Part shown: positions 6,982 to 11,984 of the stretch, piece after piece
Position numbering within the stretch: the stretch's first letter is position 1
Layout: every line of letters starts with the position of its first letter
NCBI GenBank assembly: GCA_903905455.1
Contig: CAIVGN010000043.1
Span: 1-53,446 of the forward strand
Source: an uncultured Archangium sp.
GTDB taxonomy: Bacteria; Myxococcota; Myxococcia; Myxococcales; Myxococcaceae
Length of the DNA: 53,446 nucleotides
Direction of reading: 5' to 3'
Translations under genes and position numbers: made by a program
The notes under the pieces: generated by a model
What the model saw: the letters and a program-made list of their open reading frames with translations, nothing else
Database searches by the model: none
Told to the model about the DNA's origin: nothing

Positions 6982-8250
6982 TCAGCGCCCGGTCATCGCC
7001 TGGCGCAGCGCGGAGCCCGGCTCCAGCAGCGCGAACACCTCGTCCATGGGCACGTGCTTCGTCTCGGCGAGGTGGGTGGAGGCGAGCGGGCTCCCGGCGG
7101 CGTGGTCGAGGGCGGCGATGACCTCGGCCTCGCTGCGCGGCTCACCCTTGCGCAGTTCGCGCATCACGTCGTCGAGCGATCGGGCTCCATGGCTGCGCTG
7201 CCGAATCGTCACGTCGAGGCGCAGGGCGAGACAGGCGCCGCTCCAGTACACCCGCATCCACTCGTGGTTGACGCGCAGGTTCAGGCTTCGCTCGGTCAGC
7301 GAGGTGCCCTCGGGTTGGCAATACTCGCGCGCGCTCGAGGCCAGCGTCTCCCAGGCCTGCGCTTCCGGCTTCGCCCCGGAGCGGGCTCGCAACAGCTCCG
7401 TGTAATAGGTGGTGAAGCCCTCGACGAACCACGGGAAGCGGCCGGTGGTCGGTGGGTTGCCCAGGTGAAACAGCTCGTGCACCGCGACCCAGTCACCCTC
7501 GAAGCCCGCGGTCGCCTGGCTGCCGAAGAGCAGCATCACCGAGGGATCCCCGCGCCGCAGCACCGAACCAAACACCCCCGCGTCTTCACTGGGCATGCCG
7601 GCGAGCACCAGGTGCAGCGGCCGCGTGCCCCGTGACGGCGTGCCTCCGTAGAACGTGCCCAGCGTGGCGAGCGCACCGCGAACCCATTCCCGCAACTGAG
7701 CGTCGGTGGCGGCCTTCTTCCCCTCGACCAGCGTGAGCCGCGCCGAGAACCCGGGGAGCTTCACCTCGTCGAGCGTGCGCAGCGTACCCAGGGCCAGGTA
7801 CGCGCCGGCGTCGAACTGTGCGGGCGTGACGGTGAAGGTGCCGTCCTGCTCTTGCGGCCACGGGGTCGCGACGGAGGTGCCCTGGGGCAAGGTGAAGCGC
7901 ACGCGCAGCGCGGTGTCGACGCCGTCGGGATGCAGCAGCGTAGCCGCGTCGTGAAAGAGCCACGCCGCGCCGAGGTCAGCCGCGTAGTCGGGATCGTCGC
8001 GCAGCTTGCGCAGGGCCTCGAGGTTCACCGCGTAGCGAACCGGACCCTTCGTGGGCCGCAGGAAGCACTCTTTCCGCGCGGGGTGTGGCGGGAGGCCGGT
8101 GATGGCGACCTCCGCGCCGGCCATGTCGAGGCACAGGCAGTCGCCCTTCCACCCGCTCACCGTGAGCTCGACCTTCAACGTGGCGCCCAGAGGCTCGATG
8201 GAGAACTGCGCGACCGGAGTGGCCGCGAGCACCAGCGCCAGCCACGTCAC
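6982..8250 (-). CDS. Secreted HExxH (gluzincin-type) metallopeptidase
   Basis: A 422-residue protein with an N-terminal hydrophobic stretch (MTWLALVLAATPVAQF) that is probably a signal peptide. The zinc-peptidase core is near residues 250-285: HELFHLGNP supplies the two His ligands and catalytic Glu, and WFVEGFTTYYTELL supplies the downstream Glu ligand. That arrangement is typical of gluzincins such as the M1 and M61 families. The N-terminal ~200 residues are beta-rich (VELTVSGWKGDCLCLDMAG), as in M61 enzymes. Its start codon overlaps the stop of the DUF2063 gene by four bases (ATGA), so the two are translationally coupled. The substrate is unknown. The coupling raises the question of whether it processes the Cys-repeat peptide made by this cluster. 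Confidence 0.75.
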   Translation of the reverse strand: MTWLALVLAATPVAQFSIEPLGATLKVELTVSGWKGDCLCLDMAGAEVAITGLPPHPARKECFLRPTKGPVRYAVNLEALRKLRDDPDYAADLGAAWLFHDAATLLHPDGVDTALRVRFTLPQGTSVATPWPQEQDGTFTVTPAQFDAGAYLALGTLRTLDEVKLPGFSARLTLVEGKKAATDAQLREWVRGALATLGTFYGGTPSRGTRPLHLVLAGMPSEDAGVFGSVLRRGDPSVMLLFGSQATAGFEGDWVAVHELFHLGNPPTTGRFPWFVEGFTTYYTELLRARSGAKPEAQAWETLASSAREYCQPEGTSLTERSLNLRVNHEWMRVYWSGACLALRLDVTIRQRSHGARSLDDVMRELRKGEPRSEAEVIAALDHAAGSPLASTHLAETKHVPMDEVFALLEPGSALRQAMTGR

Positions 8251-8930
8251 TCGGCGCCCAACACGATGCCCGCGGCGTGCAGGTCATCGAACACGTCATC
8301 GCGGGTGACGGGCAACCCCTCGCTCACCTGCTTGAGCACCACGAGGTCGGCCTGGGTGGCCACGGCCCGGCGCGAGTCGAGGCGGCGGTTGCGCCAGAAG
8401 AGCACCAGCACGTCCTCCTCAGGCGGGAGCGGCGCGCGCTGTGGGGCATCGAGCCAGGAGACGAGGTTCCACGCATAGGGCCGCAGCTCCACCGTCGCCC
8501 CGAGGCGCAACGGGCCTTCGTCGGGCCGCGCGTCCAGCGGGTCATCGAGGGCGCTGAGCGTCTGCCATTCCCACCACTCGAAGTCGGCGAGCGCGCTCCA
8601 CAAGGCCTCTCCCCGTCCGGCGAGGAAGGCCGCGAGCTGCGCGCCGTTCTCGTTGATCTCCACGTGCTGCATGGGGTGAAGCGCGAAGTAGTCCTCCACC
8701 AGTTGCCGCCAGGCGGGCTCACCTTGCTGCGCGGTCACCAGCGCGCGGACCTCCTGGTGCACGCCACCGGTCGCGGTGTTGCGGTGCTCGCGGCAGAACC
8801 GCTCGTAGATGGCGAGGCGCTTCGACTCTTCCGGCGGCGGCGTGCCGTAGAGCGCGACGCGGGTCTCGGTGAGCCCCGACTTGCCCTCGAGGAAGGCGCC
8901 GATGCGCTCGTAGAACGGGGCGAGCTTCAC
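8247..8930 (-). CDS. DUF2063 family, MNIO partner protein (BufC/HvfC-like)
   Basis: The start is the GTG at 8930, which overlaps the TGA stop of the MNIO gene (GTGA); longer readings upstream are antisense to that gene and were rejected. The 227-residue protein begins VKLAPFYERIGAFLEG and has the helical DUF2063 N-terminal domain (YERFCREHRNTATGG, VEDYFALHP) followed by a beta-rich C-terminal half (VELRPYAWNLVSWLDAP, DVLVLFWRNRRLDSR). In bufferin and Hvf systems this partner binds the precursor leader and presents it to the DUF692 enzyme. The order precursor, MNIO, partner is exactly the one here. Recognition-domain function is from family knowledge. Confidence 0.82.
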   Translation of the reverse strand: MKLAPFYERIGAFLEGKSGLTETRVALYGTPPPEESKRLAIYERFCREHRNTATGGVHQEVRALVTAQQGEPAWRQLVEDYFALHPMQHVEINENGAQLAAFLAGRGEALWSALADFEWWEWQTLSALDDPLDARPDEGPLRLGATVELRPYAWNLVSWLDAPQRAPLPPEEDVLVLFWRNRRLDSRRAVATQADLVVLKQVSEGLPVTRDDVFDDLHAAGIVLGAE

Positions 8931-9769
8931 GGCAGGCCTCCGAGCACCGACTTGGCTTCGGCGCGCGCGCGGTCGACCTCGTCGAGCACCTGGTCGAGCG
9001 GGGGGATGTCCTGGTCCCACTCGATGAGCGTGGGCACCAGCCGACCGAAACGCGAGAGCGTGTAGCGGTAGAGCGCCCACACGTCGTCGATGATCGGCCC
9101 GATGTGCGTGTCGATGATCACCTCGTCCTGCTTCGTGTGCCCCGCGAGGTGGAGGTAGCTCACCTTCTCCAGCGGCAACGCGTCGATGAACGCGCGCGCG
9201 TCGAACCCGTGGTTCTTCGAGTTCACGTACACGTTGTTCACGTCGAGCAGCAGCGTGGCGTCCCCGCGCTCGAGGCACGCGCGCATGAAGCCCGCTTCGT
9301 CCATGCGGCCCTCGCCATCGGCCACCGGCATGTGCGCGTAGAACGTGGCGTTCTCCAGCACCAGCGGCCGGCCCACGTGCTGGGCAGCCTGCTTCGCGCG
9401 ACGACCCACGACGTCGGCAGCTTCTTCAGTGAAGGGCAGGGGGAGCAGCTCGTGCAGCGGTCGGCCCCCGGTGGAGGCGAAGCACACGTGGTCGCTGAAC
9501 AGCGGCGCGTCGAGCTCCTGGGTCAGCGCGGCGAGGCCGTCGAGGAAGCGGGCGTCGAGCGGATCCAGGCCGCCCACGTTGAGGCTCACGCTGTGGGGAA
9601 CGAGGGTGAAGCGCTCCGACAGCTCGCGCAGCAGGCGCCGCTTCTTGCCCCCGTAGAACATCCAGTTCTCGGGGATGATCTCGAGCCAGTCGACCTGGCG
9701 CGGGGTGGTGAGCAGCTCGCTCGCGAAGGGCGTGCGGAGGCCGATGCCGATGCCTTCGAGCTTCTTCAC
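8927..9769 (-). CDS. DUF692 multinuclear non-heme iron oxidase (MNIO; BufB/HvfB-like)
   Basis: A 280-residue TIM-barrel protein of the DUF692 family. The expected metal-binding and active-site residues are visible in order: HSVSLNVGG (His), FSDHVCF (Asp-His), ENATFY (Glu-Asn), LLLDVNNVYVN (Asp, Asn), LHLAGH (His pair), IIDTHIGPI (Asp, His) and LIEWDQDIP (Glu). MNIO enzymes oxidise Cys residues of ribosomal peptides using a di- or tri-iron centre, for example to thiooxazoles or related rings. It starts 33 bp after the Cys-repeat peptide gene and overlaps the DUF2063 partner gene by three bases. The cluster strongly suggests that the peptide at 9803-10072 is its substrate. Confidence 0.92.
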   Translation of the reverse strand: MKKLEGIGIGLRTPFASELLTTPRQVDWLEIIPENWMFYGGKKRRLLRELSERFTLVPHSVSLNVGGLDPLDARFLDGLAALTQELDAPLFSDHVCFASTGGRPLHELLPLPFTEEAADVVGRRAKQAAQHVGRPLVLENATFYAHMPVADGEGRMDEAGFMRACLERGDATLLLDVNNVYVNSKNHGFDARAFIDALPLEKVSYLHLAGHTKQDEVIIDTHIGPIIDDVWALYRYTLSRFGRLVPTLIEWDQDIPPLDQVLDEVDRARAEAKSVLGGLP

Positions 9770-9802
9770 GAGCGAGCGCCCACGGTGGTGCGAGGTGACG
9801 AC

Positions 9803-10072
9803 TTACTTCTTGCCCGAGCAGCCCTTCTCACCGGAGCACGACTTCTCGCCAGCCTTGGCCGAGTCGGCCTTCGCCGCGTCGCCCTTGGCGGCGTCCATCT
9901 TCGCGCCCGAACAGCCCTTCTCACCCGAGCACGACTTCTCGCCCATCTTCTTGTCGTCGCCGGCCTTCTTCTTCACGTCGGCCTTCTTGGGGGCGACGGG
10001 CTTGTCCTCGGCAAATGCGGGGGCAGCGATGACGAACGAACCGAGCACAGCGCCGAGCAGCTTCTTGTTCAT
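9803..10072 (-). CDS. Cys-repeat RiPP precursor, bufferin/HvfA-like
   Basis: An 89-residue protein with a clean Sec signal peptide (MNKKLLGAVLGSFVIAAPAFA, cleavage likely before EDK). A Lys/Ala/Asp-rich region follows with two copies of GEKSCSGEKGCSG, near residues 44-56 and 75-87, which hold all four cysteines. Sec-targeted precursors with repeated E-G-K-C-G-like motifs next to DUF692/DUF2063 genes are known copper-binding RiPPs (bufferins, Hvf). Here the repeat unit is EK-x-CSG rather than EGKCG. GGAGA lies about 5-10 bases before the ATG. It is the first gene of the minus-strand cluster, 111 bp below a LysR gene on the same strand. Metal binding is inferred. Confidence 0.85.
   Translation of the reverse strand: MNKKLLGAVLGSFVIAAPAFAEDKPVAPKKADVKKKAGDDKKMGEKSCSGEKGCSGAKMDAAKGDAAKADSAKAGEKSCSGEKGCSGKK
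9812..9850 (-). repeat. 39-bp direct repeat, copy 1, inside the Cys-repeat peptide gene
   Basis: This copy encodes the second GEKSCSGEKGCSG motif of the precursor peptide. It matches 9905-9943 at all but two positions by eye, so the two core motifs arose by recent internal duplication or are kept alike by selection or gene conversion. Confidence 0.85.
9905..9943 (-). repeat. 39-bp direct repeat, copy 2, inside the Cys-repeat peptide gene
   Basis: This copy encodes the first GEKSCSGEKGCSG motif. The repeats are separated by a 61-bp Ala/Lys/Asp-rich spacer that codes for KMDAAKGDAAKADSAKA. Confidence 0.85.
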
Positions 10073-10183: not shown

Positions 10184-11062
10184 TCACGCGGGGCACAGGG
10201 GGTGGGCGCGCAGGTGCTCGAGCACCAGGTCGCGGAACGCCGTCACCTTGCGCGGCACGTGCGCCGAGCGGGGGTGCACGAACCACAACGCCCCGGCCAG
10301 CACGCTCCAGCGCGGCACCACGTTGACCAGCTTGCCGGCGGCGACGTCGGCGTGGGCCACGAAGGACGGCAGCGCGCCCACGCCCAGCCCCGCGCGCACG
10401 GCGTGCCAGGCGAACATCACGTCGTCGGCCTTCACCTTGACCCGGGGCTTGAAGGGCAGGGCGCGCGGCGTCGCCTGGAAGCTGACGAAGTCGAAGGCCG
10501 CGAGCTCCTCGAGATTGCGCGGCGTGCCGGACCGCGCGAGGTGGCCAGGCGCCGCGTAGAGCTTGAACTCCAGGGCGCTGAGCTTGCGCGCCACCAGGGT
10601 GGAGTCTTCCAGGCGCCCGCTGATGCGCAGCGCGAGATCGAAGCCCTGGCCCACGAGGTCTTCCGTCTGGTTCGAGAGGTGGACGTCGAGCACCACCGCC
10701 GGGTAGCGCGTGGTGAAGAGCGAGCACAGTTCGGGCAACAGCGTGAGCCCGAAGTCGATGGGCGCGGTCAGCCGCAGCGTGCCCGACGGCGCGTCGGCCT
10801 GCTCCGGGAGCTCCTGCGTGGCGTCGCGCACCATGGCCACCAGGGGCCGGGTCTTCTCGAGGAACGCGGCGCCCGCGGTGGTCAGCCGCACCTGGCGCGT
10901 GGTGCGGTGAAAGAGCTGCACCCCCAGCGACGCCTCGAGGGCCGAGATGCCCCGGCTGACCGACGACTTGGGCAGCGAGAGCCTCCGCGCGGCCTCCGAC
11001 ATGCTGCTGGCCTCGGCGACGGCGATGAACAACGGGAGCTGGTTGAGATCGACGGTCCGCAT
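10184..11062 (-). CDS. LysR-family transcriptional regulator
   Basis: A 292-residue protein starting at the ATG that gives MRTVDLNQLPLFIAVAEASS; the longer upstream reading is antisense to the dioxygenase gene. The N-terminal winged helix-turn-helix is typical (SMSEAARRLSLPKSSVSRGI, residues 20-39), followed by FHRTTRQVRLTTAG and a two-lobed effector-binding domain (DLALRISGRLEDSTLVARK, GVGALPSFVA). The CrgA-like layout resembles LysR regulators that control a divergent gene. It is divergent from the dioxygenase with only 76 bp between start codons, so it probably regulates that gene and itself. It also lies just upstream of the Cys-repeat peptide cluster on the same strand, but the 111-bp gap makes cotranscription uncertain. 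Confidence 0.9.
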   Translation of the reverse strand: MRTVDLNQLPLFIAVAEASSMSEAARRLSLPKSSVSRGISALEASLGVQLFHRTTRQVRLTTAGAAFLEKTRPLVAMVRDATQELPEQADAPSGTLRLTAPIDFGLTLLPELCSLFTTRYPAVVLDVHLSNQTEDLVGQGFDLALRISGRLEDSTLVARKLSALEFKLYAAPGHLARSGTPRNLEELAAFDFVSFQATPRALPFKPRVKVKADDVMFAWHAVRAGLGVGALPSFVAHADVAAGKLVNVVPRWSVLAGALWFVHPRSAHVPRKVTAFRDLVLEHLRAHPLCPA

Positions 11063-11138
11063 GGCGTTCCACCATTGGAACGCAGTTGTGCGAGCGGTGC
11101 CACTGGCGCAACGGTCCATCTGGACGCATGGTGGGGGC

Positions 11139-11984
11139 ATGTCGAAACACGACGCAGGCCTGAGCCGGCGCGAGGTGGTGGTGGGCGGGTTGGGGACACT
11201 CGGAGCAGGAAAGGCAAAGACCATGAAGCAGCCCACGTTGTTCGTCGCCCACGGAGCACCGCCGCTCCTGGACATCCCCAGTTGGGTCGCCGAGCTCAAG
11301 ACCTGGGGCCAGGCGCTGGGCAAGCCGAAGGCCATCCTCATGCTCTCCGCGCACTGGGAAGAGCGCCCGTTCTCCATCGGCGCCACCAGGCCGGTGCCGT
11401 TGATCTACGACTTCTCCGGGTTCCCCAAGCACTACTACCAGCAGCAGTACGCCTCGCCCGGCGCGCCCGAGCTCGCGGCCCGGCTGCGGTCGCTGGTGAA
11501 GGGCGCCGTCGACGAACCCACGCGCGGCCTCGATCACGGTGCCTACGTGCCATTGGTGGCCATGTACCCGGGGGCCGACGTGCCGGTGCTGCAGGCGTCG
11601 CTGCCCACGCTCGACCCCACGGAGTTGATCGCCCTGGGCAGGTCGCTGGCGCCCCTGCGTGACGAGGGCGTGTTGATCATCGGCAGCGGCTTCCTCACCC
11701 ACAACCTGCGCCTCGTCGACTGGTCCGAGAAGTTGCCCACGCCGCAGTGGGCCGCCGAGTTCGACCAGTGGGTCGCCGAGGCCGTGCTCAAGAAGGACGT
11801 CGACGCGCTGGTGCAGTACCGGTCGAAGGCGCCGGGGGTCCAGATCGCCCTGCCCAGCCACGAGCACTTCGTGCCGCTCCTCGTGGCCCTCGGCGCGGCC
11901 CTCGATGACAGCTCCGCTGCGAAGTTCCCCATCGAAGGATTTTGGATGGGCACGCTGACCCGGCGCTCGGTGCAGTTCGGCTGA
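11139..11984 (+). CDS. DODA-type extradiol aromatic ring-opening dioxygenase
   Basis: A LigB/DODA-family protein. Zinc or iron ligand motifs are visible: LFVAHGAPP (His), LSAHWEE (His-Glu), LDHGAYVPL (His) and PSHEHFVPL (His). Family members open catechol-type rings, as in DOPA 4,5-dioxygenase and E. coli YgiD. Two starts are possible. The ATG at 11139 adds SRREVVVGGLGTLG, which resembles a twin-arginine signal. The ATG at 11223 (MKQPTLFVAHG) gives the usual 253-residue cytosolic form and has aggaaagg some 13-20 bases upstream. I give the longer form because Tat-like leaders occur in some relatives, but this is unsettled. Expression is probably controlled by the divergent LysR gene. Confidence 0.85.
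   Translation: MSKHDAGLSRREVVVGGLGTLGAGKAKTMKQPTLFVAHGAPPLLDIPSWVAELKTWGQALGKPKAILMLSAHWEERPFSIGATRPVPLIYDFSGFPKHYYQQQYASPGAPELAARLRSLVKGAVDEPTRGLDHGAYVPLVAMYPGADVPVLQASLPTLDPTELIALGRSLAPLRDEGVLIIGSGFLTHNLRLVDWSEKLPTPQWAAEFDQWVAEAVLKKDVDALVQYRSKAPGVQIALPSHEHFVPLLVALGAALDDSSAAKFPIEGFWMGTLTRRSVQFG

Follow-up and report, generated by a model that had tools for sequence, protein, structure and literature searches.

Tens of thousands of MNIO (DUF692) gene clusters for ribosomally synthesised and post-translationally modified peptides (RiPPs) are known, and the MNIO landscape literature (PMC12452194, PMC13097082) describes the class without a protease. The characterised clusters in which the MNIO is accompanied by a PME1 partner protein (fontiphorin, oxazolin, gonophorin and bufferin 1) yield peptides that carry 5-thiooxazoles and help to detoxify copper. 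The Lys-Cys captophorins (fontiphorin FonABC, oxazolin HvfABC and gonophorin NgoABC) consist of an MNIO with all metal ligands, a PME1 partner and a Sec precursor with short Cys repeats, in which Glu stands three residues before Cys in an EGKCG core, whereas the bufferins, which combine a Sec precursor with a DUF2063 partner, are of the Buf1 (DUF2282) or Buf2 (Cys-Lys) type. Here we analysed a stretch of 53,446 nucleotides (the window), contig 43 of the 8.6-Mb genome of a soil-type myxobacterium, an uncultured Archangium sp., in which four minus-strand genes encode, in order, a Cys-containing precursor, an MNIO, a DUF2063 partner and an M61-type peptidase. It is likely that these genes form an operon for a captophorin- or bufferin-like RiPP metallophore; by analogy with the characterised relatives, its product would carry thiooxazoles and bind copper.

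A precursor, an MNIO and its partner followed by a coupled peptidase gene

The open reading frames (ORFs) called on the window form a compact unit (Table 1): 33 bases separate the precursor from the MNIO gene, and the MNIO/partner and partner/M61 junctions both consist of the sequence GTGA, a 4-base overlap of start and stop. A first-pass annotation of this DNA had placed the cluster at 8247-10072; its three genes were right, but the unit runs on to 6982 with the fourth, translationally coupled M61 gene, which had been missed. Its description of a Sec-type precursor with two 13-residue units directly before the MNIO was confirmed by the ORFs at 10072-9803 and 9769-8927, as was the placing of all four Cys of the precursor in an EK-x-CSG context. 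The precursor reads, in successive pieces, MNKKLLGAVLGSFVIAAPAFAED...MGEKSCSGEKGCSGAK...AGEKSCSGEKGCSGKK, and includes two identical units, GEKSCSGEKGCSG; signal peptides and lipoprotein-type signals were judged by eye throughout. It reached the cut-off of no family in Pfam or NCBIfam, the Pfam scan gave no DUF2282 match, and it has no CK, hence no Cys-Lys array. Of the 195 Myxococcota genomes searched, 2, both of one genus, have the doubled EKxCSG core, and the reversed control pattern gave no match in any of the 195. In the second species of this genus the precursor carries the same two units, joined by a different linker, beside an enzyme 78% identical to that of the window. Since the reversed control was empty and the two units recur beside an orthologous enzyme, the pattern is not due to chance.

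Table 1. Features of the cluster in the window
Feature	Coordinates	Strand	Basis
Precursor peptide, 89 aa	9803..10072	-	Sec-type signal (...AFA/ED), Lys/Ala/Asp-rich linker, two GEKSCSGEKGCSG units, 4 Cys
First core unit GEKSCSGEKGCSG	9906..9944	-	Sequence; doubled EKxC..G pattern match at 9906-9940
Second core unit GEKSCSGEKGCSG	9813..9851	-	Sequence; pattern match at 9813-9847
MNIO (DUF692) maturase, 280 aa	8927..9769	-	PF05114, ligands, 3BWW match, tree
PME1-type partner, DUF2063 + RRE-like fold, 227 aa, GTG start	8247..8930	-	PF09836, fold of model
Secreted M61-type gluzincin peptidase, 422 aa, HELFH...WFVEGFTTYY, GTG start	6982..8250	-	PF05299, residues, model fold

The DUF692 enzyme was recovered with its expected metal ligands: it matched PF05114 at 306.5 bits and structure 3BWW (E=8e-48), and all ten iron-ligand or proposed-base positions are kept (H59, H94, E139, D176, N179, H207, D220, H222, E250 and D252), in agreement with the ligand list of VcMbnB. 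Regarding the DUF2063 partner, which had likewise been called correctly, the product of the frame at 8930-8247 scored 34.7 bits against PF09836 (cut-off 27.2) and 43 bits as HvfC-like, below the equivalog cut-off of 142 bits. The best fold match of its model (predicted local distance difference test score, pLDDT, of 90) in the PDB was 3DEE (E=2e-5), the PME1 protein NgoC that is the partner of gonophorin, and the second was TglI of TglHI; the match to NgoC therefore settles the partner as a PME1 type.

The MNIO belongs to a myxobacterial branch apart from the HvfB and Buf2 types

In a tree of 62 enzymes (supports given as bootstrap/Shimodaira-Hasegawa-like approximate likelihood-ratio test), the window enzyme fell into a clade of seven (100/98), hereafter the window clade, all of whose precursors have E/D-x-x-C cores. 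A sister clade of 21 Myxococcaceae enzymes adjoins it (100/99), the union of both being supported at 86/78. The closest relative of the window enzyme, from the same genus, is 78% identical. The HvfB-type enzymes, including 3BWW, and the Buf2-type enzymes formed separate clades (100/99 each), with the window enzyme outside both. The nearest NCBIfam equivalogs were BufB NF050167 (279.9 bits, cut-off 310) and HvfB NF003818 (268.6 bits, cut-off 360), and neither cut-off was reached. Assignment to the Hvf/EGKCG type was rejected on account of this score, the position in the tree and the core, EKxCSG with a spacing of 6 compared to 5 in the captophorins. Assignment to the Buf2 type was rejected as well, the locus having no Cys-Lys (CKG) array and an enzyme that lies outside the Buf2 clade and misses the BufB cut-off. 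The proposal that the locus represents a distinct branch is supported for the enzyme. No published description of the myxobacterial clade was found in the literature searched, although its precursors may already be listed in the supplementary tables of the MNIO landscape literature (PMC12452194, PMC13097082).

An M61 peptidase gene is linked to the cluster

The product of the fourth gene matched PF05299 at 28.8 bits, above cut-off, and its HExxH motif and downstream Glu (H258, E259, H262 and E277) are invariant in 10 relatives. The best PDB fold match of its model (pLDDT 87) was 7XYO, an M61 peptidase of Myxococcus fulvus; 4FGM and 8J9C were also matched, and the other fold matches were further M61 peptidases and M1 aminopeptidases. 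Identity to 7XYO is about 16%. Searched by sequence, the PDB gave no match to an M61 protein of the sister clade, and it took the fold comparison to reveal the relationship. MfuP, the M61 protease of an M. fulvus lanthipeptide cluster, has been crystallised and cuts the modified core (reviewed in PMC10885120). From species and family, 7XYO is presumably MfuP. The window protein has in common with MfuP the M61/gluzincin fold, the RiPP cluster and the myxobacterial host, but MfuP belongs to a class II lanthipeptide cluster and the window protein to an MNIO cluster.

The M61 gene accompanies the cluster through nearly the whole bacterial family. Across 99 relative genomes, this M61 subfamily has 36 members, of which 30 are no more than 1.3 kb from an MNIO gene, all co-oriented with it (24 upstream, 6 downstream). 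The gene is present in 29 of the 34 genomes with a clade MNIO compared to 6 of the 65 others (Fisher p=3e-14, uncorrected for kinship). Apart from it and the core three, no gene was common to window-type and sister-type clusters in the loci compared. The M61 gene lies downstream in the window clade and upstream in the sister clade and at L040, where it is next to the MNIO gene in a contig with a Planctomycetota label (possibly misbinned). In the sister clade, all precursors and M61 proteins examined have a Cys just after the hydrophobic core and are lipoprotein-like, whereas those of the window clade are mostly signal-peptidase-I-like (L116 being less clear), a difference that amounts to one or two evolutionary events. 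At three loci (L038 and L039, at about -1.1 to -0.46 kb from the MNIO, and L162), a small secreted protein that appears YceI-like by eye is encoded between the M61 and precursor genes.

It is unlikely that chance synteny has kept an unrelated M61 gene beside the cluster. Much synteny is indeed common within the family, six genomes have the M61 gene without a clade MNIO, and one genus (G016, G033, G047 and G053) has a clade MNIO without M61, from which it follows that M61 is not essential. By contrast, the gene switches between downstream and upstream positions while the other neighbours are not shared, overlaps the partner gene by GTGA, and is absent from most genomes that have no clade MNIO. 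No pairing of an MNIO with an M61 peptidase was found in the literature searched, and M61 is unmentioned in the MNIO landscape literature (PMC12452194, PMC13097082). From the linkage and the precedent of MfuP, we propose that the M61 protein may be a dedicated processing or turnover protease.

The core varies around a fixed Glu

Precursors were extracted upstream of 159 non-redundant MNIOs; 20 MNIOs yielded none. The other myxobacterial MNIO clusters (cores such as GGEKSCGGEKGCGG, GSEKSCKG, GAEKDCAG, EGSCGAGSCG and EGKCG) share with the window the enzyme clade, the MNIO-partner order, the E-x-x-C motif and mostly the M61 gene, but differ at the residues before (-1) and after (+1) the Cys and, in the sister clade, in the lipoprotein-type signals and upstream M61. 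Cores of close relatives read GGEKSCGGEKGCGG, GGEKSCGADGKSCGG, GSEKSCKGD and GAEKDCAG, and across the myxobacterial branch the core drifts through EKSCSG, EKSCGG, EKSCKG, EKDCAG and EGSCGAG to, even, EGKCG. The sister clade carries EGSCGAGSCG, GEAQCSGQ and GEASCSGK, with EGKCGEGKCG in one subclade. The fixed point is the Glu at -3, which accompanies 29 of the 32 window-clade Cys and 66 of the 70 in HvfB-type precursors. At +1, close relatives have G, S, K, A or N, and one peptide often combines several of these; the -1 residue drifts too, and CSG cores occur in 11 of the 31 sister-clade precursors. Therefore, Ser at +1 is one state of a drifting position, and the EKxCSG core, as judged from these sequences, is a lineage variant of the E-x-x-C theme that by itself is of low to moderate interest. 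An enzyme clade whose precursors already have CSG cores, envisaged in the first-pass annotation as a finding that would refute its reading, is largely what the myxobacterial clade is, albeit one for which no published description was found. The same annotation attributed EGKCG cores to bufferins; this motif marks the Hvf/oxazolin/fontiphorin type, and Buf1 and Buf2 have other patterns. Three EGKCG cores (L013, L023 and L029) go with myxobacterial enzymes distant from the HvfB clade, which looks like convergence or a repeated return to the same motif.

The residue after the Cys is not part of the 5-thiooxazole ring, so that no change of product is implied by Ser at this position. The earlier suggestion that Ser at +1 signals new chemistry was rejected as the default, +1 residues varying within one clade and within single peptides while the metal ligands and proposed base are kept. 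A different Cys modification marked by EKxCSG (for example oxazolone-thioamide formation or C-beta oxidation) is accordingly improbable: the enzyme does lie outside the HvfB and Buf2 clades and below both equivalog cut-offs, with the substrate-contact residues Arg16 and Phe250 of FonB replaced by Thr13 and Gln253, but its ligands and base are intact, the flanking residues vary freely in the branch, and the MNIO-PME1 products examined in the literature have all been assigned or revised to 5-thiooxazole. Phe250 of FonB contacts the residues flanking the substrate Cys. Most HvfB-type enzymes have Phe at this position, Buf2-type enzymes usually have Asp (or Glu), and Gln predominates in the window branch; the change to Gln253 would fit, without proving it, as a simple reason for a wider choice at +1.

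Cores of other kinds were observed beyond this branch. At four loci (L041, L042, L119 and L125), a repeated AGCP[GA] core with Pro after the Cys lies directly before MNIOs that keep all ligands; L041 has ten TSAGCPGT-type repeats, L119 and L125 carry the core as a fusion with a CxxCH-bearing domain, and a secreted companion protein that likewise has CxxCH is encoded at all four loci. Because FonBC rejects Pro, this branch may be more unusual than the EKxCSG branch. In Obscuribacterales/Melainabacteria (L044, L046, L054, L057 and L059), KEGSCKGK repeats show Lys after every Cys and a near-strict Glu at -3.

Proposed pathway and points that weigh on it

The precursor would be made in the cytosol and presented by the partner protein to the MNIO, whose iron centre would oxidise the Cys of the core, all four most likely becoming 5-thiooxazoles, with a predicted mass shift of about -4 Da for each (-16 Da for the peptide) and absorbance near 305 nm. 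The Sec signal would then export the modified peptide to bind copper in the periplasm, and the co-transcribed, secreted M61 protein may then trim, cut or recycle it. The combined idea that a co-exported M61 peptidase of the cluster's own cuts or recycles the Cys-modified peptide, and that Ser, Lys or Ala is accepted after the Cys through the change of Phe250 to Gln, is tentative, falling somewhat short of even chances.

Apart from the genus that has the MNIO without M61, several observations weigh against the proposed operon function. Among the +1 variants tried, FonBC accepted only Ala, and Ser at +1 therefore needs a differently tuned enzyme. No copper gene, whether for a regulator or for a transporter, was recognised in the cluster. 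This agrees with the alternative that the modified peptide serves in oxidative stress or in handling a metal other than copper; some bufferin fusions occur in mercury clusters (MerC), so that the family at large may deal with further metals. For the members that have been characterised, however, the link is to copper, which makes such a role rather unlikely here. A literature search on copper induction in Myxococcus xanthus gave no usable paper. Finally, signal-bearing peptides ending in GEKSCGGEKSCGG-type repeats are encoded in another Myxococcota family (L214:6969-7181, minus strand; L215:7194-7505, plus strand) with no MNIO of the window type nearby. Such orphan GEKSCGG peptides would suit the view that the small ORF encodes an unmodified metallothionein-like or structural peptide and that the MNIO acts elsewhere. 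This view is highly improbable given that almost all MNIO genes of the branch are immediately preceded by a precursor with an E/D-x-x-C or related Cys core, and that the signal-peptide start MNKKLLGAVLG... is conserved in the window clade. One of the two orphan peptides follows ORFs resembling an extracytoplasmic function sigma factor and its anti-sigma factor.

Neighbouring genes and other copies

Just upstream of the precursor, a LysR gene (10184-11077) and a dioxygenase-like ORF at 11140 form a divergent pair (10184-11984) that is probably a separate unit, and LysR was set aside as a regulator of the cluster. The GreA-like and 175-aa ORFs downstream had no equivalent at any of the 15 relative loci used for comparison, and DoxX was not seen at the locus. 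A search for plasmid and viral copies of the cluster found none. The source genome has one DUF2063 gene; it also encodes a second, very divergent MNIO-like protein of 477 aa (L172:6321-7754, plus strand, contig 108), and similarly divergent matches occur in many relatives.

Significance for MNIO peptides

The linkage of the M61 gene raises the interest of this locus above that of its core motif alone. If the proposed role is true, M61 would be the first processing protease for the MNIO RiPP class, and its presence in two gene orders across myxobacteria suggests a missing step after export, which may be trimming, activation or metal release. The natural series of cores with SG, GG, KG or AG after the Cys, together with close enzyme relatives in which Phe is changed to Gln at the substrate-contacting position, offers a ready set for the question of substrate choice.

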